Of a stretch of DNA of 64,000 bases, positions 1-61,000 are shown one piece after another. The position numbers and the translations under genes are program-made. The stretch is from positions 19,619 to 83,618 of the forward strand of contig JAHLKH010000121.1 in NCBI GenBank assembly GCA_025526915.1, read 5' to 3'. This stretch comes from Entophlyctis helioformis. Lineage: Eukaryota; Chytridiomycota; Chytridiomycetes; Chytridiales; Chytriomycetaceae. The notes under the pieces were generated by a model. It made no database searches. It worked only from the letters and a program-made list of their open reading frames with translations, and had not been told where the DNA came from. Each line of letters starts with the position of its first letter. Within the stretch, counting starts at the first letter, position 1.

Positions 1-697
1 TCAATACCTTGGATTTCTTGCATACTCGGCTGCGCACCGGGCGATGCAAACGTCCGCCTCGTGGTCACACCAATGAGCCGTATGCTGTGGCTTGGTCTCG
101 AGGATCTCCGCGATCGCCTCGTAAATACGCTGCTTGTCGTCGTGCGTGAGCGTGAACGAACGTCGCAGCGCCTGTCTGTCTTTCCTGGATCATTGATGGT
201 TAGTTAGAATCGCCTCGATGTGGCATGAAGAAGTGGACGCACCTGGTCAAGTGTTTCGATCTCTTGCACTTGCCGCGTTTGCGAATGCACCGCAGAACAG
301 TGGCCACCCCATTCAGGACCTTAACGGCACGGTTCCTGTGCTCGATCTTAAGCCCAGAGTCGCCGTGCTGACCGTCAACATGAAAGACGTATGTGTGCTT
401 GTCGCCGAACTTGCCAATGAACGACTCGAGTACTGGCTCGAGGACTGACTTTCGTTCGGCCATGGATGGTTGTAGATCAGGCCTTCCTTGCCCGATAAAG
501 TACGCAAAGAAGACGCTCATCACATCGACGTGGACGATGCCGCAAGTGCTGGGTGTGGCCGTGTTGGTGTCGCTCGGATCTCGTGGCGGTTGTGCATTGT
601 CCAACACAAATGTCAACGCCGAGGACCAAGGCACGTCCTTGTGTACGACGACGGCCTTTGCCTTCCTGGAATGTGCAGACTGGCCGATGATGCCCAT
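1..697 (-). CDS. XPG/FEN1-like nuclease, copy A (5' part; runs off the left edge)
   Basis: Seen: ATG at 697-695 opens exon 1 (697-243), then a 58-nt GT..AG intron with a CTAAC branch site, then exon 2 (184-8) ending at a GTATTG donor; the last 7 bases are intron. The protein starts MGI, as FEN1/EXO1/XPG family members do. It has an XPG_N-like hydrophobic block (GIVHVDVMSVFF), a VFHVDG strand, and an XPG_I-like core HWCDHEADVCIA that would carry metal-binding acidic residues. The rest of the gene, including the second Asp cluster, is outside the window. It is clearly paralogous to the copy at 41.8-46.6 kb: same order of motifs and the same intron positions (both introns contain GATTCTAACTAAC). 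Inferred: a structure-specific or single-strand nuclease encoded by a mobile element. No frame break is visible here, so this may be the intact copy. Confidence 0.72.
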
Positions 698-21006: not shown

Positions 21007-22725
21007 TCATGTATTGATAAGGAGCTCGTGGAGCAGGATCCCCGCCGCGACGCTCACGTTGAGAGAATCGAGGCGGCTGCGTCCATCGTCTCGCCTCTCC
21101 ACGCCTTGCCTGATGAGCACGTGGGCATGACATTGGCGAGACACGGACTGGCGCATGCCTCGCCCCTCGTTACCCAACACAAGAATGGTTGGTGCATTGC
21201 CAATGCGCAGTATGTGCGGCCGACTGCTGGATGGGCTGCCACGGTCTTGTTGCAAAGTGTCTGATGTTGGCGACGCCAAGGCTGACGAGTCAGACTCCTC
21301 GCTTAGTGTGTCTGGAAGGTACTTGACCAGATCCAAATGCACGCAGTCGCGCTGCCGCGCGTTGATGTCTGTTCCGAGGATCTGCCATCCATTCAAGGCG
21401 GACTCCTGCACATGGCAACAGAGCATGTTAGCAGGCAATGGACAGATGGCATACGCCCACTATTGGAGCCATGTGCAGACACTCTGCAGCGCGAACCTGA
21501 AGAAACTTGGTCACATTGGCTGCCGAGTACAAGTCCATGGCCTCCATGGCTCCAGCACTGGCTTTGGAGGACACTGGACTGAACGGGGCAGACTCGCGCT
21601 CAGTGACAACGACGCCGTCTATACCAAAAAAGTACGCCGATCGCAGAATGGCACCTAGATTTTGCGGATCCACAATCTGATCCAACACTGTCGCACGGAG
21701 CATCGAGTGTCAAACCACTCATCCACTCATCCATCCATCCATCCATCCATCCATCCATCCATCCATCCATCCATCCATCCATCCATCCATCCATCCATCC
21801 ATCCATCCATCCATCCATCCATCCATCCATCCATCCATCCATCAGCGAGCATTCTCCCATCCATGACTGCACACTTACTGAGCCAGACAGGGTATCTGCG
21901 AGACCCCAAAACACGCATCCTCTTGTGGTTGCCTGACGTGGTGCCAATCTCATACCTGCGGCCAAGCGTCTCTGTCGCGTGCTCGGCTTCGTCAACCTGG
22001 CCGTCAACACCGTCCAGATCGCAGTTGCCGAGATGCGTCAGGCCAAGCACTCTCGGGGGTAGCGTGGCCAGCACCATGCCTTGGTGTGGTCTGCCGCCCG
22101 AGAGTCTGTCCAGTTGGCTTGTCGGTGCTTCTTTGACGGGAACTTCGCGTCCGTTGGCCAGTGACACGGCCAGATCCATCAGCCCTCTGTCAAGCAGGCA
22201 GCGATGGCCATCATGGCCGGCCGACCCAGCAGCCGAATCCAAGTCCTGCAGTCAGCCCGCTGAGCACCGGTATCAACACCATGTGCGCCAGACGATCAGG
22301 CACTGCCGTTGGTCAACGAACCTGTTTTCATGCTCGATGGACGAAAGGTTGACACCAGCAGCTATCCTGCCTGACAAGACAGCCTCTCCATCTCCGCGCA
22401 TGCGCAGACGGCCAAAGCGCTCGTCTTCCTTGATGTACAGCCGCACAAACCGCCGCCGTCCGTGCTCGAGAGCCGGAACCACCACGTTTGCGCCATACAG
22501 AAACTCGACGTTGGAGGACGGCTTGGAAGGCGACGACGATGACGGCGACGACGATGTCTGGCTTGCTGGTCTGGACATGGGCCGCCTCTGCAGATGGATG
22601 CTTGTGCAGATGGCATGCTTGGCGTTGAGCGCACGGCCGATGGCTGATGCAGGTGTTGACTGCCACGCAGACTGCCAGCCAGACTGCCAGCCAGACTGCC
22701 GACCAAACCGCAAGCAGCTTGGCAT
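21007..22725 (-). CDS. MRM1: Mitochondrial 21S rRNA (Gm) 2'-O-methyltransferase, SpoU family
   Basis: Four exons: 22725-22322, 22245-21879, 21687-21497, 21405-21007. The N terminus is Arg/Ser/Trp-rich and plausible as a mitochondrial presequence. Then come the SpoU substrate-binding domain ([34 protein letters not shown]) and the three SPOUT motifs: [12 protein letters not shown] (motif 1), [11 protein letters not shown] (motif 2) and [15 protein letters not shown] (motif 3), which form the trefoil-knot SAM site. Yeast Mrm1 and human MRM1 modify the large mitochondrial rRNA. Intron 2 contains a long (ATCC)n microsatellite. The start codon is only 35 bp from that of the divergent SNF2 gene. 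Confidence 0.88.
21730..21842. repeat. (ATCC)n microsatellite in MRM1 intron
   Basis: About 28 perfect ATCC units (GGAT on the coding strand) inside the intron between the second and third MRM1 exons. Long WMDG/HPSI ORFs across it are repeat artefacts. Confidence 0.95.
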
Positions 22726-37149: not shown

Positions 37150-37785
37150 CTATTGTTCAACATCGCTCGGGTCCGAGTCGTCGGCAGCAAGATCGCCATG
37201 CACACAGGCTCCAAACGATGCGCTCGCGTCCATCGTCTGCCGTGCCGCCTCGGCATCGTGCGCATTGGTCATGTCCAGACCCTTGTCCTGCGCAATCAGC
37301 CGCATCGCTGCCTCGGGCACGAGCACGTTCTGGATGTAGTCGGTGACCGACAGCGGAGACGTGGCAGCGGCCTTGAGACGCAGGAGATGCGCGCTTCCAG
37401 TGGTCGATCCTGCCAGCTTCATGATGCCCTCCAGAGCCTTTCCGCGATCTGACATGCGCTTGCAGCGCATGGCAAACCGCTTGGCCTTGACCTTCTGTGG
37501 AATGCCATGCCATGCCATGCCATCCAGTGCAATCAGCAGGCGATCAAGCAGTATGGCGGTCATGCAATGGGCATCCAGAACCAGAGAAAACGTACCCGTG
37601 CATTCAGGAATGGCGTGCAGTACGCATGGCAGCGCAGATCCCAAAAGGCTCTCTCGCCTGCTGTGGCGTTTGGATCGGCATGCTTTGCGGTCTTGAATGC
37701 AATGGCCTCGTGGACGTCGGTCGGACACTTACCCGCCAATAGCGAACCTTGACGATCCAACGAGTTGAGCAAAGCAACCACACAT
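37150..37785 (-). pseudogene. Chimeric locus: Fanzor fragment joined to an RTC4-like C-terminal tail
   Basis: Seen: 37735-37385 (minus) is closely similar to 49745-50090 of the Fanzor gene, including AIAFKTAKHADP, AFWDLRCHAYCTPFLNA and KRMSDRGKALEGIMKLAGST, with the same intron. Similarity ends after LKAA. The frame then continues into DYIQNVLVPEAAMRLIAQD and EAARQTMDASASFG before the stop at 37150, which recalls the end of the RTC4 domain (VLVPE..RLI..D, then EAR..-S..G). There is no RuvC-I motif or zinc ribbon here, so it cannot be a working Fanzor. Either an element fragment landed in an RTC4-like gene, or a host exon was captured. No typical upstream exons of an RTC4 gene were found. Confidence 0.55.
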
Positions 37786-38768: not shown

Positions 38769-38807
38769 CCACACGGCCAGGCAGATTGAACAGCGCAGCG
38801 CGGGTGA

Positions 38808-38833
38808 GGGGGGGGGGGGGGGGGGGGGGGGGG
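38808..38833. repeat. Poly(G)26 tract (poly(C) on the minus strand)
   Basis: An uninterrupted run of 26 G. On the minus strand it is the 3' end of the dispersed repeat and follows CAATTA, exactly as the C8 tract does in copy 1. Confidence 0.97.
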
Positions 38834-39597
38834 TAATTGATTTCGTTCTCATAGAGCACCCTGTGCCGGCACCTGATTGGCCGGCTGGTTTGCCTCGAAT
38901 TTTGTTCAATTTGGCATCCAATTTCCAATCTTTTTGAATCCAAATTCATATTCTTGTCCGGATTCCCCAGTCACTCTGAGCAGCCTGCAGGCGATGCCTT
39001 CTCAAGTCGTGCCCGCTTTGGCGCTTGCTTGTGGACTGCTGAGCCCGTCCAAGGGGCAGCAGTTGTCTGCGTGTTGGTAGTGTCACGAAGAACTGTCCTG
39101 CCATTGCCTGTTGCGGCTGTTGGCCTTCTGCATCCAGTCGGCGCACTTGTGCGTGCTGCTGGGGCTGCCTGCTGCAATGTCTGAACAGTCCAACGTCACA
39201 GCCAACACAGACGCACTGGCACCAGCTGCTGCTGGTGTCTTCCGCTTGCTTGGTGCTCTTTGGCGGCTGGCTGTTGGCGTGGCAGCCACAGCAACGGTTG
39301 GCTGTCCATGCTCGCCTGCAAGGTCCTTGTCGTCGTCGAGATAGTCAAGGCACACAGTGTCAACAGAGTCGCAACTGTTGACAGCCATCACACAAGAGGC
39401 AGACGGGCTCACCAACAAGGTCATGGATGGATCACTCGGCGGATCGTCGAGCTGCCGCGTATCGTCGAGCTGCTGTAAGGCATCACGCTTGGATTGGTCT
39501 GACATTGAGAACTGTCGAGGCGATACACAGAGAATGCCTGCAGCAATTCTGCTCACACATGTCAACCTCTGTCCTGGCTGCCTTGGTGTAGACAGCA
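38808..39597 (-). repeat. Dispersed repeat, copy 2, with poly(C) end
   Basis: Inverse counterpart of 2185-2956. It encodes the same frame (KRDALQQLDDTRQL, NSCDSVDTVCLD, KDLAGEHGQP). Unlike copy 1 it is continuous upstream with further exons of the same gene (to about 40.6 kb), so this appears to be the longer copy of the unit. It ends in the 26-base homopolymer. Confidence 0.75.
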
Positions 39598-40590
39598 TAC
39601 TCTTTCTGGACGGGATCGCTGATGGATCCCCATACAAAGATGTTGTACGATCTGTCGTAGGATGGTATGTGCTGTTTGTGCAGTCAGTCTGCTGTGCGAT
39701 CAGTGCATACACATCCTATGAGAATATCCTACCGGCATTTGAATGATGGCTCAACAAGGAATCCGCGCTGCTTGACGTCCATCGACCTGATCTTGAAGAT
39801 GAGTTGCATCTGTCGTGCGGCTGACATGAACTCTTCCAGGTCTGACTTGTCATTTCGGCCCTTTCCAGTCCGTCGTAAACTGTCTCGCCACGCGTTAAAC
39901 AGCTGTGTTGCATGCAATGGTTAGTGCTGATCGTCAAGGAGAGTGTGTTGTCTGCATGCTTGTAGGCTTACTTGCTCAACGGGATAGGACGTAAGCGCGC
40001 GACCATACAGGTGCATAAAGGTCGCTCCTTCTGGGACTGCAAACTCTGCTTTTGGATCAAGTGTCGCAAGCATGCCCAGATTCTGGTTGTTGGCTGCTGC
40101 AAAGACACTCGTCTCGGCAAACTGCCGTGTGAGGTTTAGAAGTCAGTGAGCGATTACACTGCTTAGTGTGCGTTGTGGGTGATCAGACTTACTTTGTGAT
40201 GATCGCGGTACTTTGCATAGTGCTCAAGGAGTTGGAGGACGCTGCTGTGAGGAGGCGGAAGGACTGCGGTTGGATGCACAAGATATTCATTGTCAGACCA
40301 GTAGCAGAGACAGGCAGGGGAGATGGAGGGTACCTGCGGTTGGATGCACAAGACGACAGCTGGGGCAAGTCTGGTGCATCGACCGCTAGCAAAAAGGCGC
40401 GTTCCAATAATGCCCATGCAGCCATTGGCACGCGGCATCAGTGCACAATGAGAGACACATTGCAGCTCATTACAGCTGCTCTTGAACGAGGGATCAGATG
40501 CAATGCCATGCATCATGATGTCAGGATTGCTGGGATCTACGAGGCACGGGAGCATGACGAGAAGCTTGTCAATGTCTTTGAGAAGCACCA
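38950..40590 (-). CDS. Unrecognised multi-exon gene whose 3' part is the dispersed repeat
   Basis: Exon-like blocks on the minus strand, with edges inferred from splice signals: HSSVLQLLEHYAKYRDHHK (donor GTAAGT near 40196); QFAETSVFAAANNQNLGML to ALTSYPVEQ (about 40135-39973); LFNAWRDSLRRTGKGRND to FLVEPSFK (about 39908-39735); YDRSYNIFVWGSISDP to TEVDM; then the frame shared with copy 1. No domain recognised. Because a truncated second copy of its 3' half exists at 2.2-2.96 kb, this is probably part of a mobile element rather than a host gene. A 20-nt sequence CTTGTGCATCCAACCGCAG is duplicated at 40268 and 40337. Confidence 0.4.
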
Positions 40591-40989
40591 CCTATACTTC
40601 ATGGCCGCCAAGTTTCACCTTGATGGCAAAAGCAGGGACGTTGTTGTTAAGTCATCTTGGAACGAAACTTGTCAGAACCAAGGGGAGGCGAGACACTTGG
40701 ATGCATATGACGCCTTTACGCGGGCCGTCTGTGAGCTTGACGAGTGGCAACAGCAAGTATATTTGGTTCTTCTTGTCCACCAGTGTCATGCTTTCAAATG
40801 AACCATTGTTGCAGTGGAAGCACAAGCCGCAGTCCAGAAGCCTCTCTCGTTGGGTCGATGACCTGTGGGTCTGCTTGACTGGGAGCTGGCTCTGTGGCGG
40901 CTGCTGCGTCCATGTCGTCCTGCTGGTGCACGGCGGCATGTGGTGGCTGTTGCTCGTCCATTCCAACTCTGTTGTCAGAGCGCCACTGC

Positions 40990-41245
40990 CACTGGTGGTG
41001 GGATCGCTGTGATTGGTCAAGCCCAGATCTGGTCATGGCACTTGCCCAAATGTGTGCCATCAATAGCGAGCACAACACGGGCGACAACACAGCGGCAGCT
41101 GACAGGCGGATGGTTCCGATGGGCACAAGAGTGCCATGCACATGGGCTGCCACATGACCAGTGCCTCGCAAGCCTTCACAAGCCTGCCGCACCATCAACC
41201 ACTCGGGCTTACCAAGTCGACACACAACCATCCATTGCAGCACGC
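40990..41245 (-). pseudogene. Possible transposase remnant (AIDGTHLGK motif)
   Basis: On the minus strand around 41090-41030 a short frame reads VVLAIDGTHLGKCHDQIWA and then hits a stop. The (A/V)IDGTH core recalls DDE catalytic regions of MULE- or PIF-type transposases. Neighbouring segments (VCRLGKPEWLMVRQACEGL) also look coding but in another frame. Too short and broken to classify. Confidence 0.25.
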
Positions 41246-41249
41246 CCCT

Positions 41250-41778
41250 TCACTGCGAGGCGGCATCCGTCAAGTCTTGCAGCCTTCGAGTGGTGCGTAC
41301 ATGCCGCTCATTGCCCAGTGGAGCCAGTCGACTGCCAACCACGGCAGCTGCCGCACTGTTGGAGCAGTGGTGAGCTGACTCTTGACCGTGCCTTGCTCCA
41401 CCTCCTGCCCACCAACCAACCGACCGCCCCATCCCGTCCAGCCCACGACGCTGTCCAACCCCCTCTTGCTCTCGCAGCCACACGCAGTCGCTCGGCCCGC
41501 AGACGGCAGGTTGGTGTGCTCCTGTCCATCCATCTACAGACCCAACTGCGTACTCTGACTGGCACTGACGCTCACACTTGCTGCCTTTGCTCTGTCCTCT
41601 CTCGCTCTTGCCGCCTCACTGTCCATGTCTGGCTGGCCCAGTTCTCAACGCACGCCGCCCCTCACCCGCCAATGCCTCCTTGCCCGCCAACGCCCCCTTG
41701 CCCACCAACTCGTCCAGCAAGCACGTGCTTGCACACTGACACCACCGCCACTGCCACCGCCACCGCCACTCGCGCAGC
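41250..41778. other. Region upstream of nuclease copy B, no gene seen
   Basis: 530 bp of C-rich sequence with short CCGCC/CCACC repeats ending just before the MGI start codon of nuclease copy B. It probably holds that gene's promoter; nothing specific can be identified. Confidence 0.4.
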
Positions 41779-42012
41779 ATGGGCATTCCAAGAGTGATCC
41801 CAAAAGTCATCAAGGGGCAGGGTGGCAAGGCACTACCTTTCGGGACGACGCTGTCTGCTGGACTGGATCTGGTGCTTGAAGACACCACGCAACACAGCAT
41901 CAGCAGCATTTACAACAGCGCGACCACTCGACCCCATCTTCTGCCACCACCATTGATGCTGCGCCTGCTTCAAAGGAAACCACCACCACTGTAACGGATG
42001 CTCGGTCGCGGT

Positions 42013-42045
42013 CACGTGATCCACGTGATCCACGTGACCCACGTG
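42013..42045. promoter_or_regulatory. Array of four CACGTG E-boxes (left LTR)
   Basis: CACGTG at 42013, 42022, 42031 and 42040, exactly 9 bp apart. CACGTG is the core site of bHLH(-Zip) factors such as Pho4, Cbf1 and USF. In the left LTR this array would drive transcription of the element. Confidence 0.75.
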
Positions 42046-43611
42046 ACCGGACAGACATTGTTGGGCCGCACCGGCCGCTCTGGTTTCCCCCGTTCTTGCA
42101 GTCGTCTGCCCGCCGTTCCCCTGTGTGCATACTCACTGCCCCGAGACCAGCCGGCAAGTCCGCCTGGAGGCCCAGTGCTACAGCAAGAACCCAACTTTTT
42201 TTTCGGTCGGGGCAGCATTGGTGAGCCTGGCTGGACATCCTCGCCGCCTCTGCTGCCTCGGCTGGAACCAGGGCCTGCTGGCGGTCGGCAGTCTTGCCAC
42301 CCAGGCCCTGCGGAGTTGCGCCTCGAGTCTCGCACACTGGACGTCTTTGTCTCAACGCTCCTGTGCTCTCGCGGCATCCGCTTGTCGACACTTGCCGCTG
42401 TGCACCAGCGCACTTTTTTTTCATGCGTCTTGGTCAGCAGCTGGCAGTGGGCAGTGTCGTCATCCACCACCGGCTCTGGCATCCTATGCCTCTTTACAGC
42501 CGCCTCACACTCACCTTCCGTCGCATGGTTCGATATCTGCCGGCATCAGCTCGCTCGCCAGCATCAGCTCCACCTGCTTGTCGCCGCATCTGCTTCTGGA
42601 CATTGTCTCCAGGCATGCTCTGTGCCTCCTGTGAGAGGAGTTGGGGCGGGATCCACAGCCGATCACCACTTACACCCTCAACTGCACCGCTGCAACTTTC
42701 GTCAGCCGCCACAACCACGCCGATCAGTCCTGACCACATCTGGATCAGCACGTCAGTATCGGCATTTGCTTCAGCACGGCACAGCCTGCATCTGCCACAG
42801 CTGCATTGACCGCCATATCAACCACCACTGGATCGGCTTGTGCCTCGCTGCTTCTGCAGCACGATGTTCTCGTCGACGGGCGCGTTCATCACCTCGGCCT
42901 TGGCAGCATCAGCCGCCTCAGCCACCCAGCTGCCATTGGTCTCGGCATCAGCATCCATCGGCCGCAGCCTGCAGACACCGGCCCCAGCACGTTGCACATC
43001 TGTAGCTCAGCATCAGCTCCTGGACCGGGTATCCAGGCCATGCTCGGTGCCTCTTGCGAGAGGAGTCTGGGGTGGGATCCCTTTTGGATCGCCACTTGAA
43101 CCCACACTGCGTCCCTGACCAGCCATCAGCCGCCACCCTACACCGTACGGCTCTGACCACATTCGGATCAGCTTACACCAACACGGCCACGCACGTCAGC
43201 TCGGTCACCACCGGCACGATCTTGCAGCTGCTGTTGCCTTTCCATCCTGATCGCCGCACCATCCGGCTTGTCCACCTGTTCATGTGTCTGTTGACCATGT
43301 TCACCCTCTCGGCCCTGATCTGTCCACCTCTCCACCTTTCCCTCTTCCATCCAATCCACCTCTCCATCTCTCCCCCCTCCATCCAATCCATCTCTCCATC
43401 TCTTCCCCTTCCATCCACTCCATCTCTCTCTCTCCTTGTTGCTCTGTGCGCACGGTTCCCCGTCCTGTGTCCTTCGCGTCCATTGTTGCCCACACCTCTG
43501 CTTCTTGTGTGTGCAACGCCCATGCATCCTCTTAGTCGCTGTTCATCCACTCTTCTTTCTTATGAGTGGCTGTCTACACTGGGGGGAGTGTAACGGATGC
43601 TTGGTCGCGGT

Positions 43612-43644
43612 CACGTGATCCACGTGATCCACGTGACCCACGTG
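43612..43644. promoter_or_regulatory. Array of four CACGTG E-boxes (right LTR)
   Basis: The same 9-bp-spaced array in the right LTR, about 200 bp before the point where the nuclease reading frame resumes. It could act as an outward promoter for the downstream nuclease and Fanzor genes. Confidence 0.7.
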
Positions 43645-46600
43645 ACCGGACAGACATTGTTGGGCCGCACCGGCCGCTCTGGTTTCCCCCGTTCTTGCAG
43701 TCGTCTGCCCGCCGTTCCCCTGCATGCATACTCACTGCCCCGAGACCAGCCGGCAAGTCCGCCTGGAGGCCCAGTGCTACACAGCGCTTATACCAGCACC
43801 CCCGATACAACCACCGCCACCACAACCGCCACAACCGCACATGATCGCATCTGGCATTATCTACGTTGACGTCTTGAGCGTCTTTTATGGACAACTCCGT
43901 AAACTGGCTGCCTCCCACTTGCCATCATCTGTCAGTGGGTGGTTGGCAATTCTTGCACCTGTCCTTGACAGCTTCCTCAAGTCGGTCGGCAACGGCCGGA
44001 TCGTCGTCTTCCATGTTGATGGCAGGCTTGCCGAGACTGGAATCAAGCAGCAGGCGCATGCCAGCCGCACCTTGGACGTCTTGCGTGCAGCAGCAACAGC
44101 TCAACAGTTGTGTGCCAAACGCAAACACCGTCACCGATGTGGGACATTAGAAAAGTAAGGTCACTTGTTTGTGCAGCATCAAGATGATTCTAACTAACAG
44201 TCATTGTTGCAGGAAAGAGGAGCAGGCGCTGATGCGCTGCTTCACTCTCACGCAAGGCAACAAGAAGCATATCAAGGAAGCGATTGAGGCGTTTCTCGAC
44301 CCGCTGTCATACCATGCTGTATGCTGGTGCGAACACAAAGCCGATGTTTGCATCGCACGCGCGGCCGCCCTCCATGTGCGTATGCACAGGTACAGATCGG
44401 CATGGCATCTGTCTGTTATGATTGATGGCTGACAACCTGCATCCCGCAGCAATGCCATGCCATTAGCAGTCATCACTGGCGATTCGGATCTCGTATTCCA
44501 TTGTGCTGGCCATTGCGGTGTCCTGATGACACGCATGCACAACGGGCATGCCACCAACATCCGCACGTTCAATCACCAGGGCGTTGTGACCATTGCAGCT
44601 GCCCTTGGACTGCGTGTTTTCCCTGGTGTATGTCAGCTGTTTGCTGCCATAGCAAACAATGACTATCACAGTTGCCATGGTTGCGGTATGTCCATTGCTT
44701 GACTCTGTGCTTGTGTTTGTCATCCATGTTGCAATGTTGACTAACTTGTGTTGCCATTCACATTGCCTGGCAGGCAATGCTGCTGCCGTCAAGTTCATCA
44801 ATGACCAGTTTGATGCTGCGGCCAAGGAGCGCGGCTTCAACAACCCGGCCGACTTCTGTGCACTGCTTCACGATCCTAAGGAGGCAGATGCATTTGCCAA
44901 TCGCGTCAAAGAATGCATATGTTGCTGACCTGCTGTCGCTGGATGGTGGTGTGGCTCTTGCCAAGAGCTTCCTCAATGCCTTTGGCGTTTTTGTCTACCA
45001 TGACGAGTCAGGGACTTTTGCCAACACGGTCACATTCCCAACCAGCGACGGCAGTCAATCTGGCAATGTGCCAAAGAAGAGGCAAGTCCTTGCATGACTG
45101 GTCATGGCATGGTGGCATAGATCCGTTTGCATGCATGGCACTCAACTGACCATCTCTCACCACATGGCAACGACAACAGCGTGGCTGTTGACGCGACCAC
45201 CACGCATCAAGCAAAGTATGTATGCATGCATGTGATCTCTTGGTGTGTCCTGCATGACTGACTCTGTGCTTCTGTCTTTGATGCAACCACTGGGATTGCA
45301 ATGCAGGTGCCAGCTACATGACGGCTGCCTCGTGATCCATCCCAAGGCGCAGCAAGGCAAGCAAAACCCCAACATCATCCATCTCATGCAGGACGACATC
45401 AGGCCACTTGTCAGGAACATTGTCAAGGAACAGCAGCTCAGTCTTACGCTGGACAAGGTCAAGGACTGCCCCACCGCACTCGACTGCGTCCTCCTGACAT
45501 GCGGCCGATTGCATCACTCACATCACCAATGGGGTCAAAAGGCCGCAACATTCTCGCAAAGATCAGCAGGTCGGCAAGTGTGCAACTGTTGGAGATTGTC
45601 CGCAAGCAGGCTCGTGAAGCGGAAGAGCGGGCAAAGCTTGGCCCGAAGGATCGGGCTATTTGGGATGGACGTGTAAGTTGCTGCATGTCTCTGATGCATG
45701 TGCACTCCTCGCCTGGACGTGTCAAACTCAATCCACTGTCATTGTACAGGGTGCTGCTTTGAGGATGAAGAAGCAGTTGGGCAAGATTGTCAATCGTCCA
45801 TGCAAATCACACCGCCACCTATCGACGCCAAGTATGCGTTGCTTGTATTGGAATGGCTTGACATCATGTACTGACAGCACCTTCTTTGCTGAACGGTGCT
45901 ATTCCAGAAACAGATGCACAGAAAGACTCACAGAAGGCCACAGCAAGCCACGCCAGCAAGTCAAGCATCAAGGCAAGGCCATCACCCGAGGCAGTTCCCC
46001 ATTGACCGCTGCCGACATCTGCGTCAAGGCGATCAAGAGGCGGGGGGCCTTGAAAGACCTCAAGAATTGCCGATTAGTGACACGCCACGAGCAGCTGAAA
46101 GAGGTCATTGACTTGCTACGTCCATCATCAAGCAAGCCACGGTACGTCTTCATCTTCACTGGCTGTGTGTGCATGCAATGACTTGGCACGATCACTCATT
46201 GTTCCACTTGACAGGAGGCTCAACTGCCCAAGCTGCCCGAGCAAGAACCGCCATCCGCCGACGGCCAGGCTGGTCAAGCAGACTGCAAGATCTTGTATCT
46301 CAATCAAGATGCAGACATCCGGACGACGGTCAGTTCTGGTGTTCCATTGGTGCTTGCGTATGCATTGTGTGCACTTGGAATGCATTGCTGATGATGCATC
46401 CAACCTCTACAGGCGCGACGCCAAATCACCAAGCAACAGGAGGTGGCGAACAAGCAGAAGCGCGAAAAGCAAGCTGCCAAGGCCGTGGCAGACAAGGCCA
46501 TCGACAGGAACAAGGAGAGTGCACGCCGGCAAGACCGCCATACCAAACCAGTGGACCCGAAGCAGACGTAGTGTTGTACACTGTGCCATGTGCCTTGGGC

Positions 46601-46703
46601 ATGCTTGCTGACATGTGTGGGCTTTGCAGACGCAAAGGTGGAGCACGAGTGACACAACGGTCGGGTTGACAGAAAGGGGGGACGCCTCACATCAGGGGCA
46701 CCC

Positions 46704-49700
46704 ATGACGCTCCCTGCGGCCATCGGCGGCAACAATCAACAAGCTGCTGTGCACGCGCCCGGTCAACCTGCTGCCGACACGCCTAGTCAAGCCGCCATGG
46801 ACGCAACCAATCAAGCCGCTGCAGACGCACCCGATCAACCTGGAGAGGATGCATCTGATCATCGTCATATGAGAGTGCTGCTGGAGGTATGATTTAGGAT
46901 TGCCATTCTGCCTGCATGCATGGCTTTGAATGTACTGACTCAGAGGTTGGCTTGCATGGTGCTCAGGACATGTTGTCAGGCGGCCCGCAGAGCGCCCCGA
47001 TCTTTGGCGTTCATGCCATCAGGTCATCAACAAGTTGGACACGCCGCCAACTTATTGAGGACATTGTCGCGAGGATTCAATCGTTCACGGTTGGCATGCG
47101 GCATGCCGGCCTTGTCGTCATCGGTGCCGTCGTCGAGGAACTTCTCGAGCTTGACCAGGACGCGCCTCTGCCACCGTCGTACCATGTCTACAAATGGCCC
47201 GATGGCAAGGCGACTCAGTATTGTTTCCTGGACGCTGATCTCAAGGACCTCATGACCTGGCGACAAGGACATCATCAAGGGCCTTGGCGCTGTCACGAAA
47301 GCGGAGCTCTTGTCCGGTCAGTTCATGCTTCGCGAGGACATTGCCGCGCGGACCATGTACGGCGCGAGTCAGTATAATGGCAGCAGCAAGCACCCTCGCT
47401 TCGGCCATCGCGTGCGACTGGTCAAGGGAACAAGACTTGAGCGCGTCATGTTCGAGAAGGTCGAGACGCGCAAGTTGCCCAACGGCCAGCCACCAGCACC
47501 AGCAGCACCAGCAGTGCCAACGCCCAATGAGCTGCTTGCGATGCTTGTCGCCAGTGAGTCGGGTGGCCAGACATCCGCAGCCTGCATCCTGCGGCACCTC
47601 TCGTTTGTCCTAACGGGCGAGCAGATGGTCAAGCCGATGTCCATCATGCTCACGCTCAATGCGTGGCTTGTCACGGTTGTCCAGCTGCTGATCCATCGCA
47701 GCTGGACACCTGGCAGCATGACCGACCAAGCTGCACCACCAGCCGACACGATCAAGGCCGACATGGACACTGGCAATGCGCAGCAGGCAGGCGCGCTGCG
47801 GACCACCGCGCGGATGGCCGAGATGAAGGCAGGCGCGCGTCGACCGGCCAAGAAGCAGCAGACTCGTGGGCGGCATCCAGACATGTGGTGGTCGAGCTTG
47901 CACCCAGCTGATGCACAGCAGGCCGACACACAGCAGGCAGTGGTGCCCTATCGGCTTGTCAACACCCTGTGCACGCGTGCGACCAAGCAGATCTTCGAAA
48001 ACCTGGCGAGGGAGGTGAGCGCCACACTCGCCAAGCACTTCATCGAGAACCGGTCAAAGCTGGCATTGGTCGCAGCCCAGAGAGCAATGCCTGCTGTGAC
48101 TCCCGAGCAGATTGCAGCGTGGGTCGATGCCATATTCAAGCCACTCAAGACCACCAAGGTTGCCAGGCATGCCGCTGCTCAAGACGCCGTTCAGGACGCC
48201 GTCAGGACGTTGCCATGGACGCCGCTCAGGACGCCACTCAGGACGACGCCATGGACGACGCCATGGACGCCACTCAGGATGTCGCTCCTCCCGCCCCAAG
48301 TCTCAAGCGGACTGCGTCACAGCTTCTTCTGGCCACTGATGGCAGTGCATCCAAGAGGCAAAAGGACGAGACTACTGCCCCTGTCGCCACAGATGCCATG
48401 CAAGACACACCACCAGCCGCACAGGACGGGGACGCCATCGAGATCCCACAAGAGCTGAATCCAATTCAGGCAATTGTGCGCAGCATGTCAACATCGGACA
48501 TTGGACGGTTCTACCAACTCCTCAAGCTCGCTGGCACTTCAGTGATGAAGCTATGCCCGCAGCCAGCAAGCCGTGACCCGTTCATCCTCGTCACTGAGGC
48601 CACGCTCTTTTGGGCGGTGGTGGGGCTGCAAAGCGATCGCATTGGCAATGAGCACGATCCTGTCCTCCAAGCATTGCGAAAGGAGCTCCTGGCCGCAGTT
48701 GGTAAGTTGCATGTGTCTATGCCAATGCCAATGCTCTTTGATGCTAACACTGCACTTTTATCCAAGACTACAAAGATGCCAAGTTGGAGCTTGGGACTGA
48801 CGACAAGGTCATCCAAAGGGCTTTCAGCAATAGCAAGGAGCTGGCCATCCTCGACATCCTCCTGCCCGGCCTCTGCCCCAAGAATCGACGCCGTCCAACG
48901 CAGGCCGAGGGTGACGAGGCCGCGGTTGATTCTCAGCCTCTGGTGGCTTCAAAGCAAGTGATCAGACAAGGCAGCATCATGACGGATGGATACACGGTCT
49001 ATCAGCTGGCACTGGACTGCCGCGCAGACCGTCCAGAGTCGCCTCGCAGTATGTGCCATGCTTGGATGCTTTGGTGCATGCATTGATTCTGACCACTGCC
49101 TTGCTCTGCAGGTCCCAACGCGGCGTCTCCAGCCCAGCAGCCCAGTCTTGCGGATGCTGCTGTTGGCATCCTTAATGCCTTGAATGGTCAATTTATCGAG
49201 CCTGACCACATGGACGTCACATGTGAGTTGCTGTGCCAATCCAGACGCGCACTTGTTGTCCACACCAACTGACATGCCATCCACAGCCGCCAATCCAGCC
49301 GACCCATCAGCCGCCAAGCCAAAAGCGACCAATCCTGTAAGTCACTTGCATGCCAACCTTGCGCATTGGTGCACATGCATTGTGCATTCCTCACTCATGC
49401 CATGGCATGACAGGCCCAGCGCAACTTTAATGCATCTCAGCGACTGCCCAATGTTGCTGATGCCAACAACTGTTCACTGACCAAGGCTAAGACTGTTCGC
49501 GTTGTCAGCTTTGATTGGGGCGAGCGGTACCTGTTTGGCGCGTCCAGCATGCTGGTCAATGTCGAGGACGAGACATACACGATGGAGTCCAACTACGTGC
49601 TCTCCTCTGGCATGGCACATGCCGAGCACAGCCTTCAGCGATGGTATGCATGCAATGACTCTGCCACGTGCACTCTTGACCAGATCAACTCACAGTGCCT

Positions 49701-50585
49701 GCCTCCTGTGCCAGGCTCAACAATCGATATGCCAAGGCTGTGGACGTCCACAAGGCCATTGCATTCAAGACAGCAAAGCATGCCGATCCAGGCGTCTCAG
49801 CAGGCGAGAGAGCCTTTTGGGATCTGCGCTGCCATGCGTACTGCACGCCATTCCTGAATGCACGGGTACGTTTTCTCTGTTTCTGGATGCCCATTGCATG
49901 GCCGCCATACTGCTTGATCGCCTGCTGATTGCACTGGACGGCATGGCGTGGCATGGCATTCCACAGAAGGTCAAGGCCAAGCGGTTCACCAAGCGCAGCA
50001 AGCGCATGTCTGATCGCGGAAACGCTCTTGAGGGCATCATGAATCTGGCAGGATCGACCACTGGAGAGCGCGCATCTGCTGCATCTCAAGGCCTGCTGTG
50101 ACAGCCAACAGAGAAGGACATTCCCGTTGTGTGGGCATTTGGCATCGACTTTACAGGCCAAGGTGGCCGGCACGCTGTGTTTGAGAAGTTTCTCATCAGG
50201 CATCTGCGGTCGTCTGGATATGCCTATGTGCGTCTGATGCCAGCTGTCCATCCATCCATCCTCTGTGCACCAACTGACCACACGATCATGCAACACACAC
50301 ACACAGATCTACCGCTGCAACGAGAACCTGACCAGCCAGATGTGCCCGCAGTGCAAGCAGCGGATCCCATACAAGAACCGCACCAACCTGCGACGCTTCG
50401 AGTGCACAGACTGCAAGACCGTCTACCACCGAGACGTGCTTGGTGCCACCAACATCGGAATGGTCGCACTGGGGCATCTGTTCCATGGACAACGGCCGCT
50501 CTACTTGACGCACACGCCAGCCGGTCAGCCTGTCAACAGCATCGCAGCAGTGTCCTCCACAGACACAGCACGTCACTCCATGTGA
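46704..50585 (+). CDS. Fanzor (eukaryotic TnpB-like RNA-guided nuclease), probably damaged
   Basis: Exons inferred from GT..AG sites: 46704-46886, 46967-48701, 48767-49048, 49112-49222, 49287-49336, 49414-49643, 49715-49865, 49967-50227, 50307-50585. RuvC-I is VVSFDWGERYLFGA (Asp codon 49513-49515). WAFGIDFTGQGGR resembles the Fanzor/TnpB strand before the ribbon. The zinc ribbon is CPQC..CTDC (50342-50414), and RuvC-III is HRDVLGATNIG. Family role: guide-RNA-directed DNA cleavage by a transposon-encoded protein. The N-terminal 700 residues contain an Ala/Gln/Asp-rich linker. Disruptions: frame changes near 47258 and 48202 and an in-frame TGA at 50099-50101 between RuvC-I and the ribbon. A canonical RuvC-II Glu is not evident. 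Whether the damage is real or an assembly error is open. Confidence 0.82.
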
Positions 50586-50609
50586 CTTGCACCACTACCA
50601 ACACTTTGA

Positions 50610-50660
50610 ATCGGGGCACCTCCCGATCGACCTAACGGGTCACTTTTTCTTACGAGAAAG
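50610..50660 (+). ncRNA. Three consecutive hairpins after the Fanzor stop: candidate guide-RNA scaffold
   Basis: Starting 25 nt after the stop: ATCGGG/CCCGAT (6-bp stem, 6-nt loop, 50610-50627), GACC/GGTC (50629-50641) and TTTCT/AGAAA with a TACG loop (50646-50659). In known Fanzor and TnpB loci the guide RNA comes from the 3' end and 3' flank of the nuclease gene. The stems are short, so this is a suggestion only; they could instead be part of the element's end or a 3' UTR. Confidence 0.3.
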
Positions 50661-50890
50661 GTAAGCCGCTCATGCATGTGGATGTGCCTCGCCTGCCTGT
50701 CGTCGCATGCTTGTTGCTGACTCGAACCTTCCATCGTGTGATGTGCGGGCTTGCATTCGTCGCCTCTCGGGTCGAATCCAATTCCAAAACGCTTGGCAAT
50801 TGTTTGAATGTCGGGCCATTTGCCGGCGGTTTGCCGGCATTCCCTCGCCCTATTGCCCACCCCTCAGCGCGGTGGCATTTATTGCAGATA

Positions 50891-51779
50891 TTACCGGGTT
50901 TGGCCCGAGACAGAGTCTGCTGTTTGTGCATGAAGTTGTGTGTACATTCGAACCAGCGAGTTGTAGCCGCGAACGTCGCCAGCACGAAGCAGGTTGGCTG
51001 CATCGCAATTCAAGGGACTGTCGGGTTCAGGGCTCTGTTCAGGTCACGCCAGGCGGGCAAGGTCCAAGCACGTAAGCATGCCAATTGCAGTCGAGAATGG
51101 CAGCGTGAGACAGACTGCCGATGCGCAGACAGACGACAAACAGTATGGCACGAGCAGGTCAACATGTACATCCGACATGCACAACTGACCGTCAAGAGCA
51201 CGCCAACGGCAAGACAGGCAGACTGCAATGTCCATGCCGGACTCCATGCCGATTTGAGCAGATCCAGACAGATCTCGCCTGTCTGTCCGTGCAACGGTTC
51301 GCCGTCAAGGACCCACATCAACGCCACAATGTGTCGGCGATCAGCCATCTTGAAGCGGTGACGATGCGCCTTCATGTGTGCCATGTGTGCCATGTGTGCA
51401 CAGTGCAACCAACCTTGAAATGCACGTTTGGATGGCATACGGCCGTGGTGAAGCGCATCGAGGGCGGGCGCATTGGGTAGTCGTCGGGCACTTGGATGGC
51501 CAGGTCGAACAAGCCGCCGCTGTATGGCGAGCCGGGACTGCCGGCGATGCTTGCTGTCCATGCAAACAGGTTGTCGTCGCTCACAGGTGCCAGTCGCTGC
51601 ACTTGCAGCTTCTGCTCCTGCTGCTGTTGCTGCTGCTGTTGAGACGGCTTGTTCCGACTCTCCTGCTCCTGCCCACTCTGCACAGCGCTATGCTCGCCGC
51701 CCTTGCCCTTGAGCTCAGAGCCCTGCTGCAACTGTCTCCGGTAGTCGTTGAGTTCCTTGAGCAATCTGCGTGCGGCCAT
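50891..51779 (-). CDS. PEX4: Peroxisomal ubiquitin-conjugating enzyme E2 (PEX4-like)
   Basis: Three exons, 51779-51414, 51282-51190 and 51034-50891, give 200 aa, all in phase. E2 fold markers: FAWTASIAGSPGSPYSGGLF, PDDYPMRPPSMRF, the HPN triad in CHPNVHFKTGEICLDLLK with the catalytic Cys, and AWSPAWTLQSACLAV. The C terminus SPEPDSPLNCDAANLLRAGD closely follows plant PEX4. Family role: monoubiquitinates the import receptor PEX5 at the peroxisome so that it can be recycled. A Gln-rich insert of about 35 residues (near 51650-51600) extends the N-terminal half. The downstream neighbour on the other strand is the Fanzor element. Confidence 0.88.
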
Positions 51780-51987
51780 TAATCGTAGTCGGGCGAAGGT
51801 AATTCGTTCGAGGGGAATGCCGGCAACCCCTGTGCACCATCAGCGATCCTCCCGTTCGACAAAAGGGGGGCCACTTGGCGGCACAGGTAGGTGGCTGGCA
51901 CTTGTGCATGTGCGTCATCCACCGACCGTCCGTGCAGGCCGCCGACTCGTTGGTAATTGCATGAGTATCGGGCCAAGATTCATTCCA

Positions 51988-53724
51988 TCAACGAAGCTCG
52001 ACTCCGCAGCGCTTTGCGACAGTCTCTCTCAGGTTGTTTTGCACAAAGTCGACCTCGGCATTGGTGAATGTGCGCTCCATCGATCTGTAGTTGATTCGAT
52101 AGCAGCGGCTGACTCTGTTGGTCTTGGGGTGCGTGAATTGATCCACCTTGCATATGCACGTTCAGTTAGTACGGTAGAGAGACAGAAGGAGCAGAGAAGC
52201 CGCAGCAGTATGGAAACACGTGGATGCGACGCACCAGCAACACTTCCTCGGCCATGTCGCCAGCAACTTCGCGGACGACTTCCATAAAGTCGTTTTCGTG
52301 AAACGACGGCGGTGTCCAAAACGACACGTCCTTGTAGCACGCAGGGTACTTTGAAAAGGGCACAAACCGCGAGATCCTTCCTGCCTTGAACTGCGAGGTG
52401 AAGCGCTGGTCGCTCGACCAAAACAGGCGGATATCTTGAATGTCAAAGAGCCGCATGGCAATGCGCTCAAGACCGAGCCCAAAAGCCCATCCGACACGGT
52501 CGCTGTTGCCGGATGCGTCCATAATCTGCTGCTGGATGATGCCACAGCCAAACAGCTCGAGCCACTTGCCGCAATGGAAAACCTCCAGCTCCCAGCTTGG
52601 GCTTGTGAATGGAAAGTAGGCGTCGATCCAGCGCAGCTGAAGGTTCGGGTCGTTGCCCATCATGCTGCGGATCAGAGTCTCGAGGGTGGTCTTGAGGTGC
52701 TGCCCAACAAACGCCGCTTCGGCGCTCGTGTGGCCTGGCTGGATGGGATTGGCATCGCTGGCACCCAAAAGGCGAACGACCTCGTCCATGCTGGTCAGGC
52801 CAACCGTCTTGGACGCGCTGGCCATGGCCGGTGACGTTGCAAGCAGCGGCACGATCGACTCGTGGAGCGATGCAGACGCCAGGTGCTTGCGATCAAACGT
52901 GCGGATCCCCTCCATCTGGTGGAAGACGGGATAGTGCGTCACGTCGATCTCGTCGCGCCTGTAGACATCTGCAGACAGCAGGTATCCGTCAGCCGAGCGG
53001 CCCTTTAGCACTTCGGACTGATGCGCCGAAGTATGGGTGCGAAGCACACGGTCTGCGTCCACGTAGTAGGTGTCTGTCCGCTGCCGGCCAGGATGGTCCT
53101 TGGTAATGAGCAGATCGTCAAAGTTCTGGACCGTTGTGACCACGGGGTTCATCGAGTCGACGATCTTGTAGATGCCGGGCTCCGTCTTGGCCAGGTGCTG
53201 CTCAATCATTCCCTTGAGGATGCCGAGCGGGTGGTTCGGCTCCAGATGCAGCCGCCGCTCAGTCTTGCTCAGGATGCTCGGCGATACATTGGTCCACGCA
53301 TCGGCCGTGTACGACTTGCCCAGGATCGAGACTGTCGGCAAGCGTCAGTTCCGAGACAGAAGGTGGACGCCACTTGCTGTCCACTTGCGGACTTGTCACT
53401 GGGCCAATGTCTTACAGCGCTGGCCGTGTTCGATGAACGAGGAGGCTGGCTGCTTGGGAGCAGACGGTGCTGCGGCCACTTCTGGTGCTGCAGAAGGTGG
53501 AGACGCCTGCGTTGACGTCGAAGCTGATGCGAGCCCGCGAAGCTGTCCACGGACGCAGGACCTGCCAAGAGATAGCCTGGCACGGACAGATGAGGCGGCC
53601 AGGTGCACGTCGGCGTCACCCGCAGGAGATGCACCGGTGGGCGAGTGCTCAGCAAGGCTCTCGCGCAGGGCCTTGCAGCCAAAACGGCCCGGTGTCTGTG
53701 GGCCAACACGATGGAGCGCAGCAT
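51988..53724 (-). CDS. FARS2: Mitochondrial phenylalanyl-tRNA synthetase
   Basis: Four exons, 53724-53620, 53542-53416, 53331-52235 and 52146-51988, give 495 aa with consistent phases. Exon 1 encodes an Arg-rich presequence (MLRSIVLAHRHRAVLAARP). Class II core: HPLGILKGMIEQHL, RTHTSAHQSEVL (motif 2 region), YRRDEIDVTHYPVFHQMEG, and WAFGLGLERIAMRLFDI (motif 3 with the ATP-binding Arg). The last exon completes the ferredoxin-like anticodon-binding domain (HPKTNRVSRCYRINYRSMER). It is the monomeric mitochondrial PheRS (yeast MSF1). It is divergent from the GrpE gene with 165 bp between start codons, a natural pairing of two mitochondrial biogenesis genes. Confidence 0.94.
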
Positions 53725-58029: not shown

Positions 58030-61000
58030 ATGTCGATAACAAGCGACGAGGTCAACTACCTCGTCTACCGCTACCTGCTCGAGTCGGGTGAGTTCAAGGG
58101 CTGCTGCCGGCCACGAGCGGTGCTCCTGGGCCTTGTCCAGCAGTATAGCTGCCAACAACTGCTAGCCCAACGGACTCTCTCTGCCAAGCCAGCTCTCTGC
58201 TAAACCCACTCTCTGCTGCCTGCTGCGCTGGACAGGCTTCACACATTCGACGTTCGCCTTCCAGCACGAAACGGCCATCCATCGCGCTGAGATCAAGGGG
58301 GCCAGTGTCCGGCCAGGTGCGCTCATCAGCCTCCTGCAGAAAGGACTGCAGTATCTCGAGGTCGAGACGCACATCCAAGAGTTAGTAGCAAGCAGACGGT
58401 CGGCTGGCTATTCTCGCAGCCATGCCAGTGGAGCCACCGTGCCATGACGCTTGACTGCCCGTGCTGCCGAACATCCGAGCATCCAACGCAACGCTGCGCT
58501 GACATGGACGGCTGCGTGCGTGTCCTTGGCGGCCAATGCAGAACGGTGCAGAAAAGCGATGCATTGCACCATTCTCGCTTCTAGGCCCGCACGAGTGCCA
58601 GATCGTGCCAGCAGACGACGACGATGAATATGACGATCGCTTTGCCCCTGCAAAACGGTCACGGCGAGATGACCAAGTCTCCACGCGGCGAGACCGCCGT
58701 GAAGAGCGAAAGGCGGCAAAGCGCGACAAGCGCCTGCGTAAAGACTCTCTGCCGCTCGATGATCTGATGGAATCCAGAGGTGGGCAGCCCGTGCCGGCGC
58801 TCTGGTGCTAGCTTGCCGTGTTGTGCCCGACGCTCATGCATACCACAAATCGCTTGGTGTTGCTTTCAGGAAAGCAAGACCCGAATGAGCAGGACCGCCC
58901 AGTTGCTGATGCAGATGTTGAACTCTATGATGCACCCTTGATTGCAGACTCTGCACAAGAAGAATTTCTTGCCTCTGATGTTCGTCTACTTTTGGGCACG
59001 AGGCCGAGGTACAAACGTGCAAACCGCACAAAAACCGACTGTGCTTGCGATGCTTGCATGTACTGACAGACTCGTGGCGGCCGGTCTGGCACTCATTGGT
59101 CAGGTCTTTGTCTGCTCGTGGAATCCAAAGGAGGCCTCTGCTTGCAACAGGGTGCGTTGTTTAAAGAAGCCATCTGAGGTTTTGCAAGCGATCCTTGCGT
59201 CGTCGTTTGCAGCACGTTGACTCGGTGGCTGACGTTGTAGTCCCTTTCTTCCAGATCGGCAGATGGAACAGCTCGGATCTGGGACATTTCTGCAATCGAG
59301 AATGGATCAGCAGCAGCACCAATTCTTCTCATGCACAATGGTCGCGCTGCTGGCACTGCTGCTCTTCTGGCACTGCTGGCTCGAGTGAGACCAAGGACAT
59401 CACGACGCTGGATTGGAGCGTAAGTGACTGGCAGTCTCGTCAACTGTCTTGCTGGCCTTGCAGAGCCGAATCTGGGTGCTTCAGGCAGCTCAAGTAATGC
59501 AAATGACCGATGGCTTATCAACGCCGATAGCCGGATGGCAGTTGTCTGGCGACAGGATCTTACGATGGTCTGGCGCGCGTCTGGCATAAAAACGCGTGCG
59601 TGGTGTATTGTCTTGAATTTGCCCTCATGCTATGATGGTAAGCTGCTTGCCAGAACAGATGTGCTCAAAGTTCTATTCCAGCCACTGACGTGCTTTTTCC
59701 TTGCACCCATGCTTGGATGTGCATGCATAGGCGAGATCAAGTTTATCATGCGCAAACACGTCGGTCCAGTGTTTTCTCTCAAGTGGTCCAAGAATGGGGA
59801 CCTGCTGCTCAGTGGCGGAGTGGATAAAACAGCCATTATCTGGGATGCCAAGTCTGGCGAGGCCGCGGACAGCAGTTTGAGTTCCATTCGGCTCCAACAC
59901 TCGATGTCGACTGGCGCGATGACTCGACGTTTGCGACTTGCTCAACAGACAAGTCAATTTATGTCTGTCAGCTTGGATCTCTTGAGCCGCTCAAGGAGTA
60001 CACTGGCCACGAGGTACGTTGATGTGCTCAGAGTCATGTCTTGGCAAGTCCCCGTCATTGAACTAACTGCATCCTATACCTGGATGGATGGATGGATGGA
60101 TGGATGGATGGATGGATGGATGGATGGATGGATGGATGGATGGATGGATGGATGGATGGATGGATGGATGGATGGATGGATGGATGGATGGATGGATGGA
60201 TGGATGGATGGATGGATGGATGGATGGATGGATGGATGGATGGATGGATGGATGGATGGATGGATGGATGGATGGATGGATGGATGGATGGATGGATGTG
60301 TCTTGGATCACAGAATGAGGTGAACATTATCAAGTGGGACCCAACTGGAACGTATCTGGCATCGTGTTCCGATGACCACACTGCCAAGATATGGAGCCTT
60401 GAGCAGGATGATCCAGTTTGGGATCTGGTGGGACATCACAAGGAAATTTACACCATACGCTGGGGTCCACACACGACCGACGATCAAGCCCTGTACCTTG
60501 CCACGTAAGTTGCCCTGGTAGGCGCGGCCGACACATGCCAGGTGGCTAACTTTGGCAAGACGGCGCGATGAATGTGCTCATCGCGTCTGGCTGCACGGGT
60601 CACAGAGCCTCCTTTGACGGCGATGTTCGAGTGTGGGATGCTCGCACCGGAAGCAACATGTTTGTGCTCTCGGGCCACTCGGAGCCTGTCTATTCCATAT
60701 CATTCAGCCCGTCTGGGTTGTATCTTGCCAGCGGCTCGTTTGACCACCGTGTGTTTGTTTGGTCGATGAAGGCAAGTCGTATCCAGTGTGCACACACTGT
60801 TGTGATGGATGTGTTGTTCTGGGAAGTTGGTGTGATTTGGTGCTGACAAGGAAGGTATCATGACATTGGCACAATAGGACGGCTCCTTGATCAAGACGCA
60901 TCGAGGCGACGGGGGTGTGTTTGAGGTGGCTTGGAACGGCAGAGGCGATCGTCTTGCGGTGTGCTACACTGACAACAAGGTGGGATGTGGCATGGATCTG

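Follow-up and report, generated by a model that had tools for sequence, protein, structure and literature searches.

A Fanzor transposon of the chytrid Entophlyctis helioformis with a predicted in-frame fusion to an XPG/FEN-type nuclease

We describe a family of DNA transposons in the chytrid Entophlyctis helioformis (Chytriomycetaceae) in which an XPG/FEN-type nuclease and a Fanzor, a predicted guided nuclease that is related to CRISPR enzymes and found in eukaryotes, share a fused reading frame. One copy lies in a 64,000-nucleotide stretch of contig JAHLKH010000121.1 (positions 19,619 to 83,618 of the forward strand; assembly GCA_025526915.1). This whole stretch is referred to as the window, and coordinates are those of the window unless a contig is named; other copies carry the handles of their contigs (e.g., C50 and C178). 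The two nucleases most likely form one gene, with a predicted product of ~1830 amino acids (aa) that would be translated as a single protein. We give a probability of roughly 60% to the explanation that the window holds a dead copy of a ~10-kb Fanzor transposon with a fused XPG/FEN nuclease, which would act by processing the flaps left by guided cleavage. A sequence-only reading of the window had already proposed a two-nuclease mobile element, and this is borne out by the genomic pairing of the two components, by shared termini, and by target-site duplications (TSDs).

The fused frame is open from end to end in one copy and through the junction in others. The gene, which was spliced by hand in copy C178 and whose exon limits were transferred to the other copies by alignment, has ~19 exons and is the only recognisable gene of the element. 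C50 has an uninterrupted frame from exon 1 to the final stop: 1780 codons, or 1829 once the MGI portion of exon 1 is counted. In C178, C13b, and C13a, no stop interrupts the nuclease half or the linker. The Fanzor half of C130 is free of stops and its nuclease half has five, and C53 and C38 are broken.

In the window, all exons lie on the plus strand. Exon 1 (41779..44154) carries the MGI start and the XPG N-region (VD, HVDG...K) and is split by a retrotransposon. It is followed by exon 2 (44213..44389), with the sequence CEHKADVCIA in the region of the E-x-D metal site, and by exon 3 (44450..44685), with the ITGDSD and NNDY metal sites. Exons 4-10 and their introns (44774..46567) make up the C-terminal part of the XPG half, which has no known domain. 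The junction intron (46568..46629, phase 2) is followed by exon 11 (46630..46886), a basic linker between the two halves, and by exons 12-15 and their introns (46967..49336), which make up the N-terminal part of the Fanzor half. Exon 16 (49414..49643) holds what we take to be RuvC-I (VVSFDWG). Exons 17-18 (49715..50227) lead to exon 19 (50307..50585), which encodes the C4 zinc ribbon (PF07282) and the presumed RuvC-III (YHRDVLGATNIG) and ends with the stop at 50583-50585.

The junction intron is conserved across divergent subfamilies. It spans 62-63 bases, ends in a TTTGCAG acceptor, and is bounded by GT...AG in all 10 copies where the site was found (the site was located by exact string, which missed it in C312). 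In all three further subfamilies tested, represented by C36, C15, and C109, its position and phase are unchanged and the frame is open on both sides; the XPG-N exons of these copies are 33-41% identical to that of the window. Because these divergent subfamilies share the intron, its phase, and the open frame, and because C50 stays open, we consider one gene the most likely arrangement. The sequence-only reading had ended the nuclease at 46571 and started the Fanzor at 46704. The supposed stop (46569-46571) falls in the donor of the junction intron and the frame continues into the Fanzor; the ATG at 46704 lies inside linker exon 11.

XPG and Fanzor sequences are paired throughout the genome. 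The assembly comprises 29.57 Mb in 482 contigs. Two XPG exons used as queries gave at least 145 (XPG-N) and at least 141 matches, which merge into at least 161 loci, and the union of two C-terminal searches gave at least 173 Fanzor places; both components are therefore multicopy, as had been noticed from the window alone. These counts are lower bounds, yet duplicate or allelic contigs are present, so the places are not all independent insertions. A co-oriented Fanzor lies no more than 12 kb downstream at a minimum of 83 of the 161 XPG loci. For 77 it lies within 10 kb (69 at 5.5-7.5 kb), and another arrangement alone is seen at only two of the 161. In 1000 random placements, the mean number of paired loci was 10.5 and the maximum 21, which rules out chance adjacency of two host gene families. 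This null is conservative because contig extents were taken from matches only (10.2 Mb). The sequence-only reading had asked whether the two genes co-occur within about 10 kb more often than chance, and they do, at 10 kb as well as at 12 kb.

Loci without a listed partner weigh against our explanation. A listed partner is missing for 78 of the 161 XPG loci and for 90 of the 173 Fanzor places. The sequence-only reading would have been refuted by lone copies at most loci, and the outcome is close to even. Causes were assigned for examples only. Some unpaired XPG loci lie at a contig edge, such as that of C182, where the contig stops 3.8 kb past the start of the XPG-N match. C312 was counted as unpaired although its Fanzor half is present, as this half is absent among the Fanzor matches listed. 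C418 and C89 are deletion derivatives, with both element ends 5.9 and 2.4 kb apart, in which the Fanzor C-terminus is kept and no XPG match was found between the ends.

The family consists of DNA transposons of ~10 kb that end in short GAGGGG terminal inverted repeats (TIRs) and occur in many copies in E. helioformis. Ten other copies served for comparison with the window. Five of these (C38, C13b, C178, C13a, and C130) have its left end (GAGGGG, a G run, and TAATTGATTTCG), and the same five plus C3 and C240 have its right end (...TTGCCCACCCCTC). C53 and C50 fall short of one or both canonical ends, and the remaining copies are cut off or duplicated there. The TIR itself (GAGGGG.../...CCCCTC) is only ~6 bp long. 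Genome matches to the two ends were drawn from the best 40 of 85 and of 121 candidates, respectively, and these 40 best places per end include 16 left-right pairs on one contig and strand less than 20 kb apart. Eight of these pairs are spaced at 9.7-10.3 kb, five at 16-19 kb, and two are short; that of the window copy spans 12.0 kb.

Exact direct repeats of 7-10 bp flank 5 of 15 copies (9 bp in C178, 10 bp in C38 and C22, and 7 bp in C331 and the window copy), and none of 210 mismatched left-right control pairs is as good. The TSD is 9-10 bp in the three clearest copies, a length that the data do not fix exactly. Counting against our explanation, a clear TSD is absent in 8 of the 15 copies and imperfect in two more (C95 and C13b). 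Termini for this comparison were placed by eye, with 0-2 bases of play. Left aside were C14, as a duplicate of C331; C53 and C50, for their non-canonical ends; and C3, C240, and C312, each with only one end available or duplicating the window. Common element ends and TSDs, both of which the sequence-only reading had named as features to look for, are therefore present. A further difficulty is that C50, the sole stop-free copy, is without the outermost ~60 and ~38 bases; GGCGGAGTTTG stands at both breakpoints, which could be alternative ends or the result of later deletion.

The window copy is, to judge from its sequence, a dead member of the family. The whole element runs from 38806 to 50865 on the plus strand, from the GAGGGG... 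left end to the ...CCCACCCCTC right end and with two later insertions included, which corrects the unit of 41779-50660 taken initially. It is flanked by the TSD copies AGCGCGGGT (38797..38805) and AGCGCGGTG (50866..50874), which pair over seven exact bases and are decayed beyond. One of the later insertions is 228 bp long (40247-40474). The other is a long terminal repeat (LTR) retrotransposon in exon 1 (41990..43781, plus strand), with LTRs at 41990-42182 and 43589-43781 that are 193 bp long and 98% identical, and with a purine tract before the 3' LTR. This insertion is absent from C38, C13b, and C178. We regard the copy as dead because the retrotransposon splits exon 1 and because single-base differences from other copies shift the frame. 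LTR-like matches also occur in C3 and C312. The 5' region (38834..41778, plus strand) is probably non-coding: its first ~2.1 kb are strongly conserved between two subfamilies without codon periodicity. A third gene in this region was rejected, as codon periodicity is absent and copy C38 has no Pfam match there on either strand.

The N-terminal half is placed by its modeled fold and its residues in the XPG/FEN1 5' nuclease superfamily, with a divergent sequence. The MGI start and XPG blocks recognised earlier are confirmed, with the ATG at 41779 and ITGDSD near 44470. The acidic residues D, D, E-x-D, D-x-D, and D, which we presume to be the metal ligands by analogy with FEN1, are invariant in nine of nine copies, with the exception of N for D in HVDG in one. 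An AlphaFold model compared by Foldseek has the fold of the superfamily, and the structural alignments shown with the EXO1, FEN1, XPG, and GEN1 5' nucleases have 8-18% identity. The best Pfam family is XPG_I_2, matched by six of nine subfamily copies (best E 7.3e-5). The XPG core shows a strong third-position bias, and in the Fanzor half C50 and C13a differ at 56, 38, and 98 sites in codon positions 1, 2, and 3; both are under purifying selection. Several values weaken the assignment: the model has a mean pLDDT of 54.8, the whole-length Foldseek TM-score to EXO1 is 0.30, and the database proteins of E. helioformis fall below the Pfam cut-off (best 21.5 versus 24.2 bits). Among the best 8000 candidates, a profile search of the protein database recovered nine Entophlyctis proteins and one environmental XPG_I_2 protein (E 0.04). 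No relative of the XPG half was found in phage records or IMG/VR viral contigs, and its sequence profile gave only four weak matches in the PDB, all to unrelated proteins.

The C-terminal half has the features of a Fanzor. The zinc ribbon and RuvC-III identified by the sequence-only reading lie at 50307-50585 and match PF07282, with E 1.4e-8 in C38 and 6.8e-11 in C50 (42.6 bits for the C50 protein, cut-off 26.3). In the genome, this cut-off is exceeded at all of the best 150 of 205 candidate places. C50 also agrees with the published Fanzor motif D-X(125,275)-[TS][TS]-X-X-C4 zinc finger-X(5,50)-RD, as given in PMC3627910, with a gap of 188, TS, CPQC...ECTDC, a gap of 5, and RD. Against plasmids, the Fanzor C-terminus gave 19 weak records, with TnpB or zinc-ribbon proteins among the matches listed. 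A protein database search with the Fanzor half gave no match at E 0.01; low-complexity words probably crowded the candidates, and absence elsewhere is not implied.

Just past the stop, three adjacent hairpins (50608..50662, plus strand) form a candidate guide-RNA scaffold, which we offer as a lead only. Their local fold has z-scores of -2.35 in the window and -4.81 in C50. Two of the hairpins are conserved, and the third varies in sequence between copies and still folds. Taken over its entire 280 nt, the 3' region does not fold significantly (z -1.23), and Rfam returned only two weak matches, far under the families' own cut-offs.

The element resembles known Fanzor carriers and differs from them in its fusion. 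It shares with the Fanzor1 proteins of fungal DNA transposons the C-terminal motif and a carrier with TIRs and TSDs, and some of the described Fanzor1 elements are likewise without a transposase (Bao and Jurka 2013, PMC3627910; Saito et al. 2023, PMC10432273). Unlike these, it has an in-frame XPG/FEN fusion of ~1830 aa versus 633 aa for SPu-1-1p, and a TIR of ~6 bp versus 33 bp in SPu-1 (PMC3627910). Two nucleases per element are also described there for PGv-1 (GIY-YIG) and Mariner-2_PGv (a putative restriction enzyme); in those elements, however, the nucleases are separate proteins of other families and are virus-borne, whereas here one gene encodes a nuclease of XPG type. With the EXO1, FEN1, XPG, and GEN1 5' nucleases, the N-terminal half shares its fold and its metal-binding acidic residues; it differs in being transposon-borne, fused to a predicted guided nuclease, and extended by a ~400-aa tail with no recognised fold. 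No report of a Fanzor-XPG pairing was found in the literature searched, to which subscription journals and preprints are largely external. What appears to be new is thus the fusion of a FEN/XPG nuclease to the Fanzor of a transposon; Fanzor transposons, and Fanzor1 elements with a separate second nuclease, are known.

The role of Fanzor for its host element is considered an open question (PMC10432273). If our explanation is true, a natural multicopy fusion would suggest that the role of Fanzor includes the processing of the guided cut, and the fusion would be a tractable protein for testing that role. The presence of at least 83 paired places and several subfamilies in one genome would allow guide RNA, target choice, and activity to be tested by comparison between copies. 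Staggered or resected ends alter the outcome of repair, and a natural guided nuclease that carries its own flap- or end-processing nuclease would be of interest to genome engineering.

TnpB is described as promoting the copying of its element through a guided break, and the same is suggested for Fanzor (PMC10432273). In the mechanism we favor, the Fanzor half would load a guide RNA read through the structured 3' end into the flank, and would then cut an allelic, sister, or empty site. The fusion would hold the XPG half at the cut, where it would trim 5' flaps, a displaced strand, or staggered ends, and repair would then insert a copy of the element. The first excision and insertion could be the work of a transposase supplied in trans. 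We infer the guide RNA, the guided cleavage, the flap processing, the copy-back, and the functional link between the two nucleases. Counting against our explanation, no Pfam transposase was recognised in six frames of C38 or in the C50 protein; a divergent one may sit in exon 12 or in the tail of the XPG half.

Among the alternatives, the one that fares best, although we still think it unlikely, is that the element is a non-autonomous passenger mobilised in trans by an unrelated transposase (e.g., a MuDR type with a 9-bp TSD), and that the fused nuclease has a side role in host defence or competition between copies. MuDR-type Fanzor elements with a 9-bp TSD and no MuDR transposase have been reported (PMC3627910), and the deletion derivatives with both ends, C89 and C418, are also in keeping with a passenger. 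However, the MULE transposase domain (PF10551) has no genome match at E 0.1, other transposase families not having been searched in the genome, and purifying selection on both the XPG core and the Fanzor argues that both matter to the element. We hold it a more distant prospect that the element needs no transposase at all, in which case the Fanzor would open and cut the target and the tethered FEN/XPG nuclease would make a second incision, giving a staggered ~9-bp cut and copy-paste insertion.

Improbable in our judgment is an Academ-type (AcademX) element in which the XPG nuclease is an accessory and the Fanzor a captured passenger. The AcademX nuclease is said to be XPG-like. These elements do resemble ours in encoding a nuclease, but their TSD is 3-4 bp versus 7-10 bp here where exact, and Fanzor is not mentioned for AcademX in the available portion of the source (PMC10045372). 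Nor was a second gene or a transposase domain recognised in our element. The TSD of AcademH (9-10 bp, PMC10045372) would fit, but AcademH is a helicase carrier and no helicase domain was matched here.

We rank below this the possibility that the same element holds two genes, an XPG-like one ending at ~46571 and a Fanzor starting at ~46704, which are mobilised together and translated separately. Several observations favor two genes or count against our explanation. Unspliced, 9 of 10 copies read an in-frame stop (TGA or TAG) at the junction donor, which is GTAGTG in the window and, in the nine other copies, GTGAGT in eight and GTACGT in C53; an ATG follows ~130 bp downstream. Only C50 is stop-free throughout among seven aligned copies. 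The linker exon shows no codon-position bias, with differences of 4/3/4 at positions 1/2/3 between C50 and C13a and 22/17/20 between C50 and C178, and the bias is slight in the XPG tail (15/10/16 and 59/44/62, respectively). An annotated fused protein, sought as a 1006-3200-aa database protein matching the XPG region, was not found among the best 8000 candidates, and the nine NCBI protein models are short fragments of 187-520 aa. Nevertheless, the stop coincides with a splice donor (GTGAGT in 8 of 10 copies) that is followed by the TTTGCAG acceptor, and C53, with its GTACGT donor, has no stop there. The recurrence of the intron in all three subfamilies and the open frame of C50 also speak for a single gene. 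So does C15, from which the Fanzor start methionine (window 46704) is missing, although an alternative in-frame methionine stands nine codons upstream in the same exon. The least probable alternative is that the XPG half has no catalytic activity and serves to bind, directing the Fanzor to DNA structures in the manner of Asteroid- or Mkt1-type XPG proteins, which can be inactive. In its favor, the best family match (XPG_I_2) lies under cut-off and HVDG has N for D in one of nine copies; against it, no other metal-binding acidic position varies among the nine copies, and the third-position bias of the XPG core is strong.

Divergence between copies is mosaic. Between C50 and C178, exons 1-6 differ by 25-35%, exons 8-10 and introns 6 and 8-10 by 0-4%, and exons 13-18 by 5-16%, and several introns are more similar than the adjoining exons. 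This suggests recombination or gene conversion between subfamilies. Some copies also appear to be duplicated as loci. C312 matches the window at 98% over 42100-53551, past the right end of the element, which suggests an allele, a haplotig, or a segmental duplicate of the window locus. The element copies at C14:143150-160300 and C331:4200-14650 have identical flanks, which suggests segmental duplication or an assembly duplicate.

The genome holds further sequences related to the two halves. An inverted Fanzor fragment just outside the window element (37369-37723), which the sequence-only reading had placed at ~37.4 kb, is 88.8-94.3% identical to the matching stretch of ten copies. The XPG paralogue that it had seen at the left end of the window is on the minus strand at C121:19887-20162 (window 269-544). 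Additional XPG_I_2 matches at C1:247972-248244 and C38:89474-90367 lie inside long open frames (1474 and 771 aa), which are possibly host genes; the C38 frame is 5.6 kb away from an element copy. One short NCBI model, BC831DRAFT_189128, agrees with the translation of contig C36. Elsewhere in the window, long tetranucleotide-type repeat arrays at 60081-60292 and 21710-21843 lie in inverted orientation.

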